Assembly: GCA_938038265.1 (NCBI GenBank)
Contig: CALHRC010000189.1
Location: 1-38,424, forward strand
Length of the DNA stretch: 38,424 bases
Direction: 5' to 3'
Source of the DNA: an uncultured bacterium
Lineage (GTDB): Bacteria > Spirochaetota > Leptospiria > Turneriellales > Turneriellaceae
Below are positions 2,432-37,166 of the stretch, piece by piece (positions within the stretch are counted from its first letter, which is position 1; each line of letters begins with the position of its first letter). The translations under genes and the position numbers were made by a program. The notes beneath the pieces were generated by a model, which was not told the origin of the DNA, made no database searches, and saw only the letters and a list, made by a program, of their open reading frames with translations.

Positions 2432-3556
2432 ATGCCCAAGCAAAAAGCTAAATACACTAAGAAGAAACCAAGTTATAAATCTGGTTTAACGCGTGCCCGC
2501 CAGCAGCCGATAGAGGTAGTGCATACCATCGAAGAGAGCGAAGTACAGAGCGTTCCGCAACCACCTTATTCTCTTGCTCTTGTAGGGCAGTTGCTTGGCT
2601 GGCTTGCCGCCCGGCACGCTCAATTTAAGGCCACCATCAAACGCAAGAAAGAAGAGCGTCTGACCCTTATGTTCATCCCCCATAATGAGCGGTCTATTCG
2701 CAATTATCATATCAGTAATTTGACGCTTACCATCATTCTTTCGATTGTATCTTTTTTGCTGGTGGTCAGTTCTTTTTTGGTGATCATGCACAACAGCACG
2801 GTACAGGAAGTCGATAAAATGAAGGTTTCCCAAAAAGATGCCCAACTGCAGTTTGCCAAGATTCGTGAGGAGATCAAAAGTATTGGCGAGACTTTTGCTG
2901 AAGTGCGTGACATGATTTCATCCCTCTATGGCTATGCCAAAGGTAAAGATGAAGCTGTTGCGGTCTTTGCGGCAGGCGGTGTGGATCTAAAGGCAATGAC
3001 AACCCAGTTTGATGCTGAAAGCGCCGACAAGAAAGATGCTGATGCAATCCCTCTTGAGGTTTTTCTGCTTGAACGCATTGCCGATGATATGCATATTTCG
3101 CAAGAAAAGCTCAGTGATGTGCAGGATTTCCTTAAGAAGAGAGAGAAAATCATTCGCAATACACCTACCCTGTGGCCGGTACGTGGTTATATTATCAATC
3201 CTTACGGTTTTGTACGCGGGGCAGACCGTTTGAATGCCGCTTATAACCGCGGGGTAGATATTGCTTCCCACCCCGGAGCTGTGGTAAACGCAACCGCGCC
3301 GGGTATTGTTGTTTCTGTTCAAAAAGATTCCCGTTTTATGTACACGGTGCGTATCCGCCATAACTATGGCTATGAGACCGTTTACCAGGGTCTTGAGCGG
3401 GTGACCGTGGCCACTGACGAGAAGATCAGCAAAGGGGAAAGCATTGGCTATATTGGCCATTCCAATGATATTCTCGAAGCCATACTTCATTATGAAATTC
3501 ATATCGGGGTTGAGCCAGTCGATCCGATGCCATACCTGAGCCATACCGGCAGTTAA
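2432..3556 (+). CDS. Membrane-anchored LytM/M23-like protein with a degenerate active site
   Basis: A 374-residue protein: basic N-terminus, one hydrophobic helix (about residues 98-117, ILSIVSFLLVVSSFLVIM), a coiled-coil stretch after it, and a C-terminal LytM/peptidase M23 domain (about residues 250-365). By eye, several catalytic positions are lost: the HxxxD zinc motif reads N272-R-G-V-D276, the YxHL histidine position is glycine (Y318-Q-G-L) and the HxH motif reads I351-L-H353. Such degenerate LytM proteins (EnvC, NlpD) are known to regulate amidases rather than cut peptidoglycan. The start at 2432 is chosen because upstream codons overlap the divergent metF and look unrelated. Three bases separate it from the bactofilin gene, a pairing known in several phyla to control cell shape. 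Confidence 0.82.
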   Translation: MPKQKAKYTKKKPSYKSGLTRARQQPIEVVHTIEESEVQSVPQPPYSLALVGQLLGWLAARHAQFKATIKRKKEERLTLMFIPHNERSIRNYHISNLTLTIILSIVSFLLVVSSFLVIMHNSTVQEVDKMKVSQKDAQLQFAKIREEIKSIGETFAEVRDMISSLYGYAKGKDEAVAVFAAGGVDLKAMTTQFDAESADKKDADAIPLEVFLLERIADDMHISQEKLSDVQDFLKKREKIIRNTPTLWPVRGYIINPYGFVRGADRLNAAYNRGVDIASHPGAVVNATAPGIVVSVQKDSRFMYTVRIRHNYGYETVYQGLERVTVATDEKISKGESIGYIGHSNDILEAILHYEIHIGVEPVDPMPYLSHTGS

Positions 3557-31551: not shown

Positions 31552-31575
31552 ATAACTATGGAACTCCATAGTTAT
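31552..31575. terminator. Inverted pair of the CATAGTTATG element, possible terminator
   Basis: ATAACTATGG (31552-31561) and CCATAGTTAT (31566-31575) form a perfect 10-bp stem with a 4-base loop AACT. It lies 33 bases after the stop of the FG-GAP gene. There is no T-run on the plus strand after it, so function as a terminator is uncertain. It is built of two copies of the iterated element. Confidence 0.4.
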
Positions 31576-31727
31576 GGTGGGGAATTCCCTATCAGGCACC
31601 ATCCGACAGGTGGTGTCGGAAGGGTATGTTTGTGGTTAAAGCTCACGGATAGGTTTTTCCCCATTTGTTCAGGAATTCCTGAACAGAAATTTTCACTATA
31701 GTATGGAATTCCATAGCATAGTTATGG
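31576..31727. repeat. Cluster of P1, P2 and related palindromes
   Basis: P1 (GGTGGGGAATTCCCTATC, 31576-31593), the hairpin CCGACA...TGTCGG (31603-31619), the perfect 20-base P2 TGTTCAGGAATTCCTGAACA (31666-31685), the palindrome TATGGAATTCCATA (31702-31715) and CATAGTTATG (31717-31726) stand one after another. Three of the four types are centred on GGAATTCC. No gene is seen here. Confidence 0.7.
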
Positions 31728-31732
31728 AACTC

Positions 31733-31830
31733 CTGAACAAAGCAAAGCCCGGGGGTAGTGCAGGACTGGCAGCTTGCGGTTAAACTTCGAGCGGACTGCG
31801 AAAAGCGGTGCCCCCTATGCACCTCTTTAT
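31733..31830 (+). repeat. GC-rich structured repeat R2, copy B
   Basis: CTGAACAAAGCAAAGCCCGG, then a GACTGGCAG block, matches copy A after its P2 element. The 3' half (GAGCGGACTGCGAAAAGCGG) matches copy C (GAGCGCCTGGCGCGAAAACC). The hairpin GGTGC...GCACC lies at 31807-31823. From here to the tRNA (31831-31960) I see only a hairpin around 31872-31892 and no clear promoter. Confidence 0.45.
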
Positions 31831-31960
31831 ATCGACTTGCTCTACAGAAACCCTCAAACAATGTATGGGGTTACGAGCGTAATATATTCGTAAAAACCTT
31901 GCTGAGGTGTCTTGATTCCCAATCTTGACTCGATCTGCTGCCTGCGGATGCCATAACTAT

Positions 31961-32032
31961 GCCCCGGTAGCTCAATGGATAGAGTATCGGTCTCCGAAGC
32001 CGGTGATGCAGGTTCGATTCCTGCCTGGGGCA
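31961..32032 (+). tRNA. tRNA-Arg(CCG)
   Basis: A complete cloverleaf: acceptor GCCCCGG with CTGGGGC (one G-T pair), D-arm GCTC...GAGT, anticodon stem TCGGT/GCCGG with two G-T pairs and loop CTCCGAA (anticodon CCG), and T-arm GCAGG-TTCGATT-CCTGC. The discriminator is A, and CCA is not encoded. The iterated element (31952-31961) reaches its first base. Confidence 0.96.
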
Positions 32033-32077
32033 CAGATTCGTCCCATAGTTATGGCTTTAAAGGCATAACTATGGCTT

Positions 32078-32230
32078 TAAAGCGAGATCGGGGGAGCCGA
32101 AAACGCCCAGCACGGCGGCAGGGTTGAGCGCCTGGCGCGAAAACCGGTGGCCCATAAGGGCCAGCCGCCGGGCGGTGCCCGCAGGGCAGGGCGGTTGAGG
32201 CCGGGGGCGGCTAGCCCCCGCCCTACTTTT
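32078..32230 (+). repeat. GC-rich structured repeat R2, copy C, ending in strong hairpins
   Basis: After two copies of the iterated element, each followed by the block ATGGCTTTAAAG, a GC-rich stretch shares blocks with copies A and B. It contains TGGCCC-ATAA-GGGCCA (32148-32163) and GGGGGC-GGCTA-GCCCCC (32203-32219), the latter followed by TTTT. This could end the tRNA-Arg transcript. An open frame runs through it (from 32147), but its sequence is low-complexity and not protein-like. Confidence 0.45.
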
Positions 32231-32278
32231 CCTTATTATCTGCTTGACGCACCATATAAAACCTGCTTCTTCCAATCC

Positions 32279-32746
32279 ATGCGGTATTTAACTGCCATAA
32301 CTATGCTGCTGGTGCTACTAGGTGGATGTAAAGCCCGAATTTTTACCGACGTTTCAGTAGAGCTAAAGAACCTGGAAGATGTTTTCCCGGGAGAATTCCG
32401 GGGAGAGACGCTTGAATTGCGGCGTAAAGACAGCGCTTTGCGTATGGGCGCGCGCGAGTATCTGGTAGGGCTTTATGGCGCCCAAGCCAGTTTTCAGGCC
32501 TGGGAATTTGACGAACCACCGGCCGCTAAAGAGGCTCTTGCCAATCTAGAGCGGCAAAAAAAAGAAGAGACAATGCAAAGTTTCAGTTCTGAGCGCAGCA
32601 CAGAATATCGTTTTGATTATACACTTGAAGCCGGCGAGGCGGGGATTATGTTTACCAATAAGGTTTTTCTCTTCGCGATTGAAGCGCCGAACTATGACCG
32701 TCTGGTGGAATTTTTAAAAGTGGCAAATATTGCCAGAATACAATAA
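32279..32746 (+). CDS. Small lipoprotein of unknown function
   Basis: 155 residues from ATG 32279. The signal peptide MRYLTAITMLLVLLGGC ends in a lipobox (LLGGC). The mature part is mixed alpha/beta, with a charged helix (KEALANLERQKKEETMQSF) and a final segment APNYDRLVEFLKVANIARIQ. I do not recognise the family. The open frame extends 44 codons upstream into the GC-rich repeat; that part is not counted. The iterated element forms codons 6-9 of the signal peptide (AITM). The FecR-like lipoprotein gene follows after 10 bases, so both are likely one transcript. Confidence 0.72.
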   Translation: MRYLTAITMLLVLLGGCKARIFTDVSVELKNLEDVFPGEFRGETLELRRKDSALRMGAREYLVGLYGAQASFQAWEFDEPPAAKEALANLERQKKEETMQSFSSERSTEYRFDYTLEAGEAGIMFTNKVFLFAIEAPNYDRLVEFLKVANIARIQ

Positions 32747-32756
32747 GGGGGATGGC

Positions 32757-33752
32757 ATGAAACAATTAGCGGGGTTTTTAGTTGTTTTGCTGGCGTTGGT
32801 CGGCTGTAAAAAAGAAGAGAAAAAAGCAGTGAAATCAGAGCGAGCTGCCGTTGTAACCTTTGTCAAAGGCACGGAAGCCCGTATTGATCGCGAAGGGTCT
32901 GGTATTGCGGTTAAACCGGGGGAGTTTGTTTTTGTCAAAGATGTTCTGGTTACCGGAGCAAAGTCGAATATCGATTTGCAGTTATCTGAAGATCGGGTGG
33001 TTAAGATTAGCGAGAAGAGTCGGGTTGAGATCAGCGAAATGCTGGCAACCATTGACGGGGCTACGAATGACAGTCTGAATTTGGTTGCCGGCGGTATTTA
33101 TTCCAAAGTAGGTAAGTTGTCAAAAGGTTCCAGTTTCTCTGTACGTACCCCTACTGCGGTGGCGGGTGTACGCGGTACGGAATTTTATGTTGAGTCAGAC
33201 GAGCAGGGCCAGAGCTCGATCTCTGTTACCGGCGGTAAGGTTGAGGTTGAGTCAGTGACAGGGGAGAAGTCTGTTGTTGAAGAAGGCCAAAAAGCCGAAG
33301 TAAAAAAAGATGGTAAAGTGGAAGAGAAGGGGCTTGCCCAGGCAGAAATTGCTAAATTGAAAGGATATGGCGATATCAAGGCATTTGACAAAGCAGAGTT
33401 TGCCGGAATCAGTGACAAATTAAAAGATGTGAAGCTGCTTAAAGAGAAAAAAATGAATTTTAACGAGTTACAGCAGCAGTTCTCGCCCGGTGGTGGCAAA
33501 AAAAGCGATGTTCTGGATGAGCAGGGTAAAGACCTTAAGGAAAAAGGTGAACAGCAGATGCAGCAAATGAAGTCGAAGGGGGATGAGCTGCGTAAATCTC
33601 TTTCGCCCGATGCGATGAAAGGCGATAGTCTCAAAAGTGACGCTTTAAAAAAAGCGGATGATATTAACACTCCGGATACTGGTAAGGCTGATAAAAAAGT
33701 AGAAGAAGGCAAGAAGGAGCTCGATAAGTTAAAGAAGAAAAAGTTATTCTGA
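32757..33752 (+). CDS. FecR-domain lipoprotein with a Lys-rich helical tail
   Basis: 331 residues, with signal peptide and lipobox MKQLAGFLVVLLALVGC and AAGGGGG before the ATG. Residues about 30-185 form a FecR domain: ARIDREGSGIAVKPGEFVFV, SNIDLQLSEDRVVKISEKSRVEI, SFSVRTPTAVAGVRGTEFYV and SVTGGKVEVESVTGEKSVVEEGQKA. The last 130 residues are charged and helical (KEKGEQQMQQMKSKGDEL). The classic partner FecI/FecA genes are absent, so it is a free FecR-type envelope protein, as is common in spirochaetes. The domain may bind peptidoglycan or other envelope parts; that is unproven. The gene is followed by mqnD after 2 bases. Confidence 0.85.
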   Translation: MKQLAGFLVVLLALVGCKKEEKKAVKSERAAVVTFVKGTEARIDREGSGIAVKPGEFVFVKDVLVTGAKSNIDLQLSEDRVVKISEKSRVEISEMLATIDGATNDSLNLVAGGIYSKVGKLSKGSSFSVRTPTAVAGVRGTEFYVESDEQGQSSISVTGGKVEVESVTGEKSVVEEGQKAEVKKDGKVEEKGLAQAEIAKLKGYGDIKAFDKAEFAGISDKLKDVKLLKEKKMNFNELQQQFSPGGGKKSDVLDEQGKDLKEKGEQQMQQMKSKGDELRKSLSPDAMKGDSLKSDALKKADDINTPDTGKADKKVEEGKKELDKLKKKKLF

Positions 33753-33754
33753 TC

Positions 33755-34612
33755 ATGAGGGAGGTATCGCTGGCTATAAGTCCTTGCCCGAATGATACCT
33801 TTGCTTTTTATCATTTTATACACTCGCCGGCCTTGCGGGGCCGGTTTCGGGTGGTACATCCTCTGTATGCAGACATCCAGCAGTTAAATGAGTTGGCCCT
33901 GGCTGGAGACCCCGATATTGTCAAGGTTTCTTTTCTCGTGGCTGGTGAGTTGTTGCATAGTTATGACTTACTCCCTTCTGGGGGTGCTATTGGGTATGGG
34001 GTCGGGCCTTTATTATTGGCCCCGCCGTGGGGGCTCCAGGTAGCAAAAGGTCAATCATTGCGGGTAGGTTTGCCAGGCAAGAATACATCCGCCCACCTGT
34101 TGTTTGAATATTACGCGAACCATACCCACTTACGGCATAGTTATGGCATTACCAAGCAGCATATGCTTTTTTCAGAGGTTATGCAGCGGTTGCAGGATGG
34201 TTCTCTTGATCTTGGCGTGGTGATTCATGAGGGGCGTTTTGTGTACCAGGCAGAAGGACTGCAGTTACAAGAGGATTTAGGTGCTTTCTGGGAACGAAAT
34301 AGTGGTTATCCGGTGCCTTTGGGGGCTATTCTTGTCAGAAAAACTCTGTCGGATGAGATTAAAGAAGATATTCGTTTGACTTTAAGGAAGAGTATTGAAC
34401 GCGCAATGGCGTCTTTTACGGCCCGGGATTCAGGTTATATGGCAGATATTTTACCATTTGTAGCCCGACATGCCCAGGAACTGTCTCCTGGGGTAATGGA
34501 AGCACATATAAGCACTTATGTGACCCAGGAGACCATTGAGTTGTCCCAGCAGGCGTTGGCGGGTGTTCAGTTCTTCTGGCAGCAGGGTAAAACACTGCTT
34601 GCAGGCTCCTGA
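33755..34612 (+). CDS. mqnD: 1,4-dihydroxy-6-naphthoate synthase
   Basis: 285 residues of the periplasmic-binding-protein fold. The start AISPCPNDTFAFYHFIH is the MqnD hallmark. VSFLVAGELLHSYDLLPSGGAIGYGVGPLLL and VGLPGKNTSAHLLFEYY follow, with the catalytic-site histidine region in LGVVIHEGRFVY. The enzyme converts cyclic de-hypoxanthine futalosine to 1,4-dihydroxy-6-naphthoate in the futalosine route to menaquinone. The other mqn genes are outside the window. Two copies of the iterated element lie in the gene, each read as HSY. It follows the FecR gene at once, which may be chance. Confidence 0.93.
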   Translation: MREVSLAISPCPNDTFAFYHFIHSPALRGRFRVVHPLYADIQQLNELALAGDPDIVKVSFLVAGELLHSYDLLPSGGAIGYGVGPLLLAPPWGLQVAKGQSLRVGLPGKNTSAHLLFEYYANHTHLRHSYGITKQHMLFSEVMQRLQDGSLDLGVVIHEGRFVYQAEGLQLQEDLGAFWERNSGYPVPLGAILVRKTLSDEIKEDIRLTLRKSIERAMASFTARDSGYMADILPFVARHAQELSPGVMEAHISTYVTQETIELSQQALAGVQFFWQQGKTLLAGS

Positions 34613-34632
34613 GAGTAGCATAGTTATGGCTT

Positions 34633-35226
34633 ATGGTGAATCCAATATTTGATACCGACAAAGCTCGATTAGAGTTAAAGGCGGCTATCCAACAATATTC
34701 TTTTCGGGAGGATCACGACAAACTATTTACCCTCGCATCCGGTAAGCAGAGCCCTTATTATTTTGACCTGAAGCAGACCCTGTTACAGCCCCGGTATTTA
34801 AAGTTGGCTGCTGGCTTGCTTTTGCAGTCAATCCACCGCTATTGCCCCCACGCGAAAGCAGCGGGGGGGCTAACTATGGGGGCGGATCCCCTGACGTATG
34901 CCATAACTATGGCGGATAACGACCAAGGTGGCAGCTTGCTGCCCTTGGTCGTTCGCAAACAGGCCAAAGACCATGGGAGTAAAAAGCCGGTCGAGGGAGC
35001 CTTAAGTATGCTGCAAGCCGGCGATCCTGTTTTGTTGTTGGAGGATGTCATAACTACGGGAATGTCCGCTCTGCTCGCGTATGAAGTTATAGTCTCATTG
35101 GGTTTTCAGATAAGCCATTGCTTTGCAGTATTGGATCGCGATGAAGGGGGGCGTGGCGCTTTGCAACAGCGCGGCATTGAACTACATACTTTATTTACTA
35201 TAGATGATTTCAGGAGTCGGACATGA
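34633..35226 (+). CDS. pyrE: Orotate phosphoribosyltransferase
   Basis: 197 residues, making OMP from orotate and PRPP in pyrimidine synthesis. Visible: FTLASGKQSPYYFDLKQTLL (N-terminal substrate loop), GGLTMGADPLTYAI, VVRKQAKDHGSKKPVEGAL (flexible catalytic loop with lysines) and the PRPP motif VLLLEDVITTGMSALL. The ATG has no clear ribosome site; the iterated element (34619-34628) occupies that position. Another copy at 34902 is inside the gene. The stop overlaps the malQ start as ATGA. Confidence 0.94.
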   Translation: MVNPIFDTDKARLELKAAIQQYSFREDHDKLFTLASGKQSPYYFDLKQTLLQPRYLKLAAGLLLQSIHRYCPHAKAAGGLTMGADPLTYAITMADNDQGGSLLPLVVRKQAKDHGSKKPVEGALSMLQAGDPVLLLEDVITTGMSALLAYEVIVSLGFQISHCFAVLDRDEGGRGALQQRGIELHTLFTIDDFRSRT

Positions 35227-37166
35227 AGTATCAATATGGTTCCCAGAAAATTACCGGTGTTGCCATACCCGTTTCATCACTGGTGTCTGAAAAATCCTGT
35301 GGGATAGGCGAGTTTGCCGATTTGCCGCTTCTGGCGGAATGGTGTGCTGCCCGAGGCATCAAGCTGATACAGATATTGCCCGTGAATGACACCGGTACAG
35401 AACCCACTCCGTATTCTGCCCAAAGTTCCCTGGCATTGAATCCTGTTTACCTGCGTTTCGAGGATATTCCCGGATATGCCCAATATCTAACAGAGATCAA
35501 GACTTTTCGCACTGAGCAGAAAGTTAAGCGGCGGGTAGATTATCGGGCGGTATATGCCTTTAAGGTGAATATTCTGCGCCGGATGTATAAAGACCAGAAG
35601 AAAGCAATTCCATCCGACCCTGAGATTTTGAAGTTTTTGTCAGATAATGATTGGTTGAAAGTATATGCCGTTTACAAGGAGCTGAAAGAGCGTCATGACC
35701 AGCGTTCCTGGCAGGATTGGGGTCAGTTCAGGGATCCTCATGTTTCTTTTATTGACGACTATTTTGAGCGGCATCGTGAGGAGTTATTCTTTTATGTCTG
35801 GGTGCAGTGGTTGTTGGATCGCCAGTTGCGGCAGGCGGTCTTTTCTTGTGAATCGAGGGGGGTGATGTTAAAGGGGGATATCCCCATTTTGATGAATGAG
35901 GACAGTGTCGATGTTTGGGCGCAGCGGGAGTTTTTTGATTTGCGTTATCGTGCGGGGGCTCCACCGGATATGTATTCTATTGAGGGACAGAACTGGGGAT
36001 TTCCCGTTTATGAGTGGAGTGCACTTAGAAGCCATAACTATGCCTGGTGGCGCAGGCGAATTGCCCGGGCAGATCGCTATTATCATGCGTACCGAATTGA
36101 CCATGTATTGGGATTTTTCAGAATATGGCGGATACCAGATAGTGAATATTCTGGCCTAATGGGCCATTATTCCCCTGCATCATACATTTCGCGCGAAGAT
36201 CTTCAGGAGAATGGTTTCGATAACGGCCGTATCCGTTGGTTATCGGTACCACACATCGCCGGTCATGAGATTTCAGCTGCTTTGGGTGATAATTCAGGCA
36301 TAGTTATGGCTCAATATCTCGACCAGATCGAAAATCAGGATCTCTATCTGCTCAAGGATAGCATCGCATCCGAGAAAGCAATTGCTAATTTGCCAGAAAA
36401 TCAGCAAATCAAAGATTTTCTGCTGTATTGGCACCGCCAGCGGGCTCTGCTGCCACTTGAGAATGATAACTTCTTCCCTTTCTGGAACCGCAGAGATGTT
36501 TATTCCTATAAGTCTTTAGAAGAAGAGGAGCAAAAACGACTCGAAAACCTGATAAAAAAGCACGAGCAACAATCAGAGCAGATATGGGAACAACAAGCCC
36601 GTGAGTTGCTGGCTATTATGCAACAGGATCATGAAATGCTGGTTTGTGCGGAAGACCTGGGCGCTGTGCCCGATTGTTTACCCCAAGTGCTCTCTGATCT
36701 GCAGATACTTGGCTTGCGGGTGGAACGCTGGACGCGGGATTATAAATCTGCAAGCCATAACTATGTCCCAGTCAAGGAATATCCTGAGCTATCAGTAGCT
36801 ACCAGCTCTGTGCATGACTCATCTACCCTGCGCGGTTGGTGGCAAGAAGAATTTGATAAATCCCTATACCTTAAACACATAGGGGTGGATGTAGCTCCCG
36901 AGCCGGAACTTTCACCCATACTGGCTGAAGCTATCCTCAAAAATCTGGCAAAATCTGCTGCCAGGCTTCTAATCATCCCCCTCCAGGATTTTCTGGCTCT
37001 TGATGCTGAAACCCGTTTGGTCAGAGCAGATGAAGAGCGGATCAACATACCAGGGACAGTCAATGACACCAACTGGAGCTATCGCATACCAATGACGCTG
37101 GAAGCTCTGCTATCGGGCTATTCGGCATTAAACAGAAAAATTAATTCAATATCAAATAGAGCATAA
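35223..37166 (+). CDS. malQ: 4-alpha-glucanotransferase (amylomaltase, GH77)
   Basis: 647 residues, transferring alpha-1,4-glucan chains between maltodextrins. GH77 motifs: GDIPILMNEDSVDVWA, the substrate-binding GQNWGFPVYEW, the nucleophile aspartate in YRIDHVLGFFRIW, the acid/base glutamate in VCAEDLGAVPDC and the transition-state aspartate in TSSVHDSSTLRGWW. It is a little longer than the usual bacterial enzyme (about 500), with an insert of charged helices at about 360-460 (EEEEQKRLENLIKKHEQQSE). Three copies of the iterated element are inside. It overlaps pyrE by 4 bases although the pathways differ. Confidence 0.94.
   Translation: MKYQYGSQKITGVAIPVSSLVSEKSCGIGEFADLPLLAEWCAARGIKLIQILPVNDTGTEPTPYSAQSSLALNPVYLRFEDIPGYAQYLTEIKTFRTEQKVKRRVDYRAVYAFKVNILRRMYKDQKKAIPSDPEILKFLSDNDWLKVYAVYKELKERHDQRSWQDWGQFRDPHVSFIDDYFERHREELFFYVWVQWLLDRQLRQAVFSCESRGVMLKGDIPILMNEDSVDVWAQREFFDLRYRAGAPPDMYSIEGQNWGFPVYEWSALRSHNYAWWRRRIARADRYYHAYRIDHVLGFFRIWRIPDSEYSGLMGHYSPASYISREDLQENGFDNGRIRWLSVPHIAGHEISAALGDNSGIVMAQYLDQIENQDLYLLKDSIASEKAIANLPENQQIKDFLLYWHRQRALLPLENDNFFPFWNRRDVYSYKSLEEEEQKRLENLIKKHEQQSEQIWEQQARELLAIMQQDHEMLVCAEDLGAVPDCLPQVLSDLQILGLRVERWTRDYKSASHNYVPVKEYPELSVATSSVHDSSTLRGWWQEEFDKSLYLKHIGVDVAPEPELSPILAEAILKNLAKSAARLLIIPLQDFLALDAETRLVRADEERINIPGTVNDTNWSYRIPMTLEALLSGYSALNRKINSISNRA

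Follow-up and report, generated by a model that had tools for sequence, protein, structure and literature searches.

The window, i.e. the whole stretch of 38,424 bases that was analysed (contig C189 of genome G000), contains 14 exact matches to the 10-mer CATAACTATG. Thirteen are located between positions 31567 and 36765, a region harboring a predicted tRNA-Arg(CCG), a predicted lipoprotein gene, mqnD, pyrE and malQ; one lies apart at position 3359. Dinucleotide shuffles of the window gave an expectation of 0.06 copies, and 0 of 100 shuffles reached 14. Upon uniform placement of 58 copies in 2,000 simulations, the densest 5.2 kb held at most 4 copies as compared to the 13 observed. The dense cluster noticed in a preliminary description of this DNA is thus real, and the sharp change in density claimed near 31.5 kb is supported.

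Seven of the clustered copies are genic and six lie in spacers, with plus and minus orientations mixed (Table 1). As had also been described, the copies in mqnD, pyrE, malQ and the lipoprotein gene are read in different frames (HNY/HSY, ITM/IVM). The tRNA-Arg(CCG) has copies on either side (31952-32073), the upstream one overlapping its first base. The single copy outside the cluster, at 3359, is probably protein-driven, because the DNA encoding RHNYGYE is very similar at the sites in two relatives (L044, L052).

Table 1. Matches to the 10-mer in the window, with one single-mismatch site
Feature	Position	Strand
Intergenic; adjoins the palindrome GGGAATTCCC	31567..31576	-
Intergenic; within a run of nested palindromes (GTTCAGGAATTCCTGAAC, TATGGAATTCCATA)	31717..31726	-
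Final G is the first base of predicted tRNA-Arg(CCG)	31952..31961	+
Intergenic; 11 bp past tRNA-Arg; inverted pair with 32064..32073	32044..32053	-
Intergenic; second arm of the inverted pair with 32044..32053	32064..32073	+
Predicted lipoprotein gene (32147-32746); AITM, signal-peptide-like stretch	32296..32305	+
mqnD (HSY); in place as compared to relatives, LLHSYDLLPSGG versus LLDTYDILPSGA	33956..33965	-
mqnD (HSYG); alignment ambiguous by 2 residues	34136..34145	-
Short spacer between mqnD and pyrE	34619..34628	-
pyrE; YAITMADN versus YAIVLEAH in relative G006, equal length by eye	34902..34911	+
malQ (SHNYAWW); no indel as compared to solved amylomaltases	36033..36042	+
malQ (GIVMAQ)	36299..36308	-
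malQ (SHNYVP); no indel at the word as compared to the potato enzyme	36756..36765	+
Isolated copy in a gene; peptide RHNYGYE	3359..3368	+
Sole one-mismatch site of the coding patches; inside DVITTG, a motif typical of PRPP-binding proteins	35049..35058	+

Genomic distribution and gene copies

The genome-wide count proposed in the preliminary description was performed for G000 (2.61 Mb, 234 contigs, 83% complete) and revealed 58 copies of the 10-mer as compared to 2 of the reversed control word. All contigs carrying a copy were read, together with control contigs; 19 copies lie in called ORFs (minimum 130 aa) and the other 39 between genes. Sixteen of these 19 are found on only three contigs, C189, C113 and C140, in patches of 0.7-5.2 kb: seven in the window, seven on C113 (2.0-4.5 kb and 12.2-12.9 kb) and two on C140 (5.5-6.5 kb). 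Thus, the cluster described for C189 was confirmed; similar patches on two further contigs and the intergenic position of most genomic copies had not been foreseen. Inside the patches the word occurs about once per 0.4-0.6 kb. Their base composition is ordinary and gives no sign of foreign origin.

Contigs joined at repeats might mix G000 with an element-rich strain, since the assembly is fragmented and 21 of the 57 copies on contigs analysed whole are found at most 500 bp from a contig end, as compared to 5.2 expected. Apparently, this excess arises because the intergenic copies belong to repeats at which the assembly seems to break. The boundary at 31.5 kb on C189 falls in a mosaic of palindromes, so that a chimera could produce it, but the patches on C140 (one) and C113 (two) are contig-internal with word-free genes on either side and are not explained in this way. 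Together with a reported contamination of 0.08% and the ordinary composition, this makes an assembly or binning artefact very unlikely.

The patches comprise 9.3 kb of coding DNA with 16 exact copies and one single-mismatch site, as compared to 4 exact copies and 25 single-mismatch sites in 419 kb outside them. When synonymous codons of the patch genes were shuffled, which addresses the codon bias raised in the preliminary description, 1.9 ± 1.2 exact copies were obtained, with a maximum of 7 in 500 shuffles; therefore, the gene copies are kept as DNA and not as protein, as had been proposed, and codon bias fails to account for them. Both stop-free codon frames are used, HNY/HSY as well as ITM/IVM. 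Considering also the window shuffles, the reversed control word and the placement simulations, the probability that chance or codon bias of the patch genes produced the pattern is practically negligible; they may account for the isolated copies on C53, on C56 and at window position 3359.

Comparison with homologues, likewise suggested earlier, showed that in alignable genes the word replaces resident sequence in place and no insertion has occurred. Length is unchanged at the first mqnD site, at both gcvPB copies (the alignment of the C-terminal one being ambiguous by one residue as compared to the nearest relative), in yggS and, by alignment to solved enzymes, in malQ; pyrE was judged by eye, and the second mqnD site is ambiguous.

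Core, flanks and intergenic repeats

The flanks of the 16 patch copies are constrained as well. Position -2 is G in 15, -1 is C in 13 and +12 is C in 13 copies; -3 is A or T in 15 and +11 is G or C in 14, and +13 shows no preference. The gene copies hence follow a bounded, partly degenerate 15-bp consensus, WGCCATAACTATGSC, and not the perfect palindrome GCCATAACTATGGC as the extended form. Because their flanks are constrained but degenerate, the gene copies look like a recognition word and not like pasted sequence.

Exact sites with a bounded consensus and a near-palindromic core typical of dimer sites, 3-13 per array in both orientations and in unchanged composition, would also be consistent with locus-specific arrays bound by a DNA-organising or DNA-anchoring protein and selected in place in genes, comparable to matS, parS or Noc sites but more closely spaced and present at multiple loci. 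The word, however, differs from canonical parS, TGTTTCACGTGAAACA, which is separately present twice on C33; its centre is AC/GT in 58 of 65 CATANNTATG sites, a near-invariance that would be unusual for a symmetric dimer; and patches of a few kb between word-free genes are unlike a domain. Furthermore, the orthologues of three patch loci are scattered in family member G004 (3.04, 3.95 and 4.10 Mb, with parS at 1.41 Mb). These positions had suggested a large terminus domain, but word-free flanks around patches of only a few kb speak against it. We regard binding-site arrays as rather unlikely.

At least 19 of the intergenic copies form the first hairpin of one genome-specific structured repeat, often located at contig ends. 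It consists of the hairpin GCCATAACTATGGC, a second hairpin around CTATCTAACGTTATAT and then TTTTAGTAACTAA; folding of one unit gave z-scores of -4.75 (RNA) and -5.37 (DNA). A search of five repeat-bearing contigs against Rfam (E ≤ 1) returned only tRNAs and no match to the repeat. Two candidate identities were set aside: an integron attC site, considered for AACGTTATAT and CTATCTAAC in the repeat, appears unlikely as the R' box GTTRRRY is not matched by GTTATAT, and RAYT-driven mobility was rejected as no match to PF01797 was obtained in G000 at 83% completeness.

The repeat is embedded in mosaics of further palindromes, e.g. GTTCAGGAATTCCTGAAC, whose 16-bp core TTCAGGAATTCCTGAA occurs 204 times in G000 and 0 times in 12 family genomes. 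These mosaics, e.g. L063:3400-3907, L065:1-330 and L083:10417-10811, are specific to G000, and contigs often end there. GTTCAGGAATTCCTGAAC or a one-base variant was also found inside genes (L062:9856, L065:12741, L068:2366, L073:5446, L073:5554 and L078:2015), mostly read as VQEFLN; at L065 and the second L073 site it appears in place as compared to solved homologues, and GGGAATTCCC lies between the two L073 copies. Other words are over-represented as well: CATCCCCC/GGGGGATG about fourfold in the genes of G000, window included (162 versus 41), ACATCCCCCC about 15-fold in coding DNA (41 versus 2.7) and GGATATATCC about 11-fold over Markov expectation, with seven genic copies (L065:12016, L066:1694, L076:3144, L079:7000, L090:4119, L090:19394 and L092:15242) and none in spacers.

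A core common to the G000-specific repeat and to genes is what would be predicted if the hairpin GCCATAACTATGGC had been copied via single-stranded intermediates into nearby quasi-matching sites, replacing resident bases. Such local templated spread would agree with the spacer copies contained in patches on C189, C113 and C140, with the all-or-none exactness of the word and with the in-place occurrence of VQEFLN-encoding GTTCAGGAATTCCTGAAC in genes. Sites with three mismatches are slightly depleted in the patch genes (36 versus 47 with whole genes counted, reached by about 4.5% of random gene sets, P about 0.045), a weak deficit which had looked strong when counted by position (28 versus 48) and became marginal with whole genes. 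Verbatim copying, however, would not predict the coding flanks. At -3, +11 and +13, the intergenic repeat mostly has T, G and A, respectively; the gene copies have A or T at -3 and C at +11 in 8 of 16 cases, unlike the repeat yet constrained, so they are not simple pastes of it. In addition, the patch at 2.0-4.5 kb on C113 lacks spacer copies. Templated spread consequently appears unlikely to us.

Possible origin of the patches

Tentatively, and with less than even confidence, we favor CATAACTATG as the core of a word of the HIP/DUS class that would be recognized in a sequence-specific manner; in G000 it takes the form WGCCATAACTATGSC, and its gene patches would have come from an unsampled, word-rich relative. 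A protein would read this word, which is kept as DNA, stands in genes by in-place substitution and also forms the first hairpin of the intergenic repeat. In the putative donor the word would be dense across the genome; its dense coding patches, 0.7-5.2 kb in size and now on three contigs, would have entered by homologous recombination, e.g. by natural transformation, the remainder of G000 being without the word. Since the patches are no compositional outliers, any donor would be a close relative. Import fits the patch size, which resembles that of recombination tracts, as well as the sharp borders, the exactness and, given a close donor, the ordinary composition. ComEC, which is present in G000, is widespread and no proof of competence.

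Several observations argue against import. A genome rich in the word turned up neither among 392 further genomes of the phylum nor among 12 family members, a set without a congener; the 14-mer GCCATAACTATGSC occurs 31 times in G000 and at most once in each of these 392 genomes. Family member G010 has just 22 copies of the 10-mer and not one per 580 bp. Moreover, the core is also a hairpin of the repeats of G000 itself, which pure import does not explain. In viral contigs, the 14-mer gave single chance-like matches only, among the loci listed, and the 20-mer palindrome was absent.

Two family members carry the 10-mer weakly and with another flank. Of the 22 copies in G010, 15 have the core between G or C at either side, usually as GCATAACTATGC; in G008 this holds for 7 of 10 copies. 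The core in this flank is enriched and mostly genic in both. These flank variants resemble dialects of one word. At L103:14873-14910 of G010, two copies form the long perfect palindrome CATAACTATGTTTGTGGCATGCCACAAACATAGTTATG within a predicted gene, near its start.

The preliminary description, whose interpretation is partly supported, had offered a bound domain, a segment acquired from an element-rich genome, or active spread of a small element. The flanks tell against plain pasting of one element, and patch size and patchiness against a large domain. It is conceivable, if doubtful, that housekeeping genes at a few loci are recoded by a DNA-reading system so as to carry dense arrays of the 15-bp WGCCATAACTATGSC, with the same site in a genome-specific hairpin repeat; the result would be a chromosomal mark of a new, locus-specific kind and not a genome-wide word.

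Comparison with known systems

A literature search returned no paper about the word; the string turned up only in papers on unrelated subjects. BIME, NIME and SDR5 of Nostoc are intergenic mosaics or small dispersed repeats. The intergenic copies in G000 resemble them in forming a hairpin within mosaics that are built of small palindromes and specific to this genome; the gene copies differ, being length-preserving substitutions and not insertions, and there is no RAYT match. SDR5 is mentioned in PMC4390886. The sites of matS/MatP, parS/ParB and Noc type are likewise near-palindromic, confined to a limited part of the chromosome and also found in genes, but the word occurs once per 0.4-0.6 kb in few-kb patches. 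Its identity with parS was rejected because the sequence differs and canonical parS lies elsewhere.

HIP1 and the alternate HIPs of cyanobacteria are spread genome-wide and associated with methyltransferases (Elhai 2015, PMC4390886). Like them, the word is short, palindrome-like, exact, in place in genes and accompanied by lineage-specific variants. It differs in its patchiness, its length of 10-15 bp and its asymmetric AC centre; the genome has 58 copies versus 2 of the control, but those in coding DNA keep to patches on three contigs. In Neisseriaceae, DNA uptake sequences and dialects of them occur genome-wide (Frye et al. 2013, PMC3630211). They share a core with lineage-specific flanks in genes and spacers and would explain the import of word-rich tracts; however, the word is patchy, and a genome-wide density near one per kb is not found in G000. 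The likeness to HIP1 and uptake sequences drawn earlier thus holds for the exact word, its placement in genes and its lineage-specific flanks, but not for genome-wide spread.

The genomes that have yielded HIP1 and uptake sequences are already saturated with them, so that the origin of such words is unsettled. G000, in contrast, carries an exact word in a few kilobase-size patches whose word-free neighbours serve as internal controls. The question of origin becomes testable here, as strains should differ in distinct ways under import, local hairpin copying and selection of site arrays.
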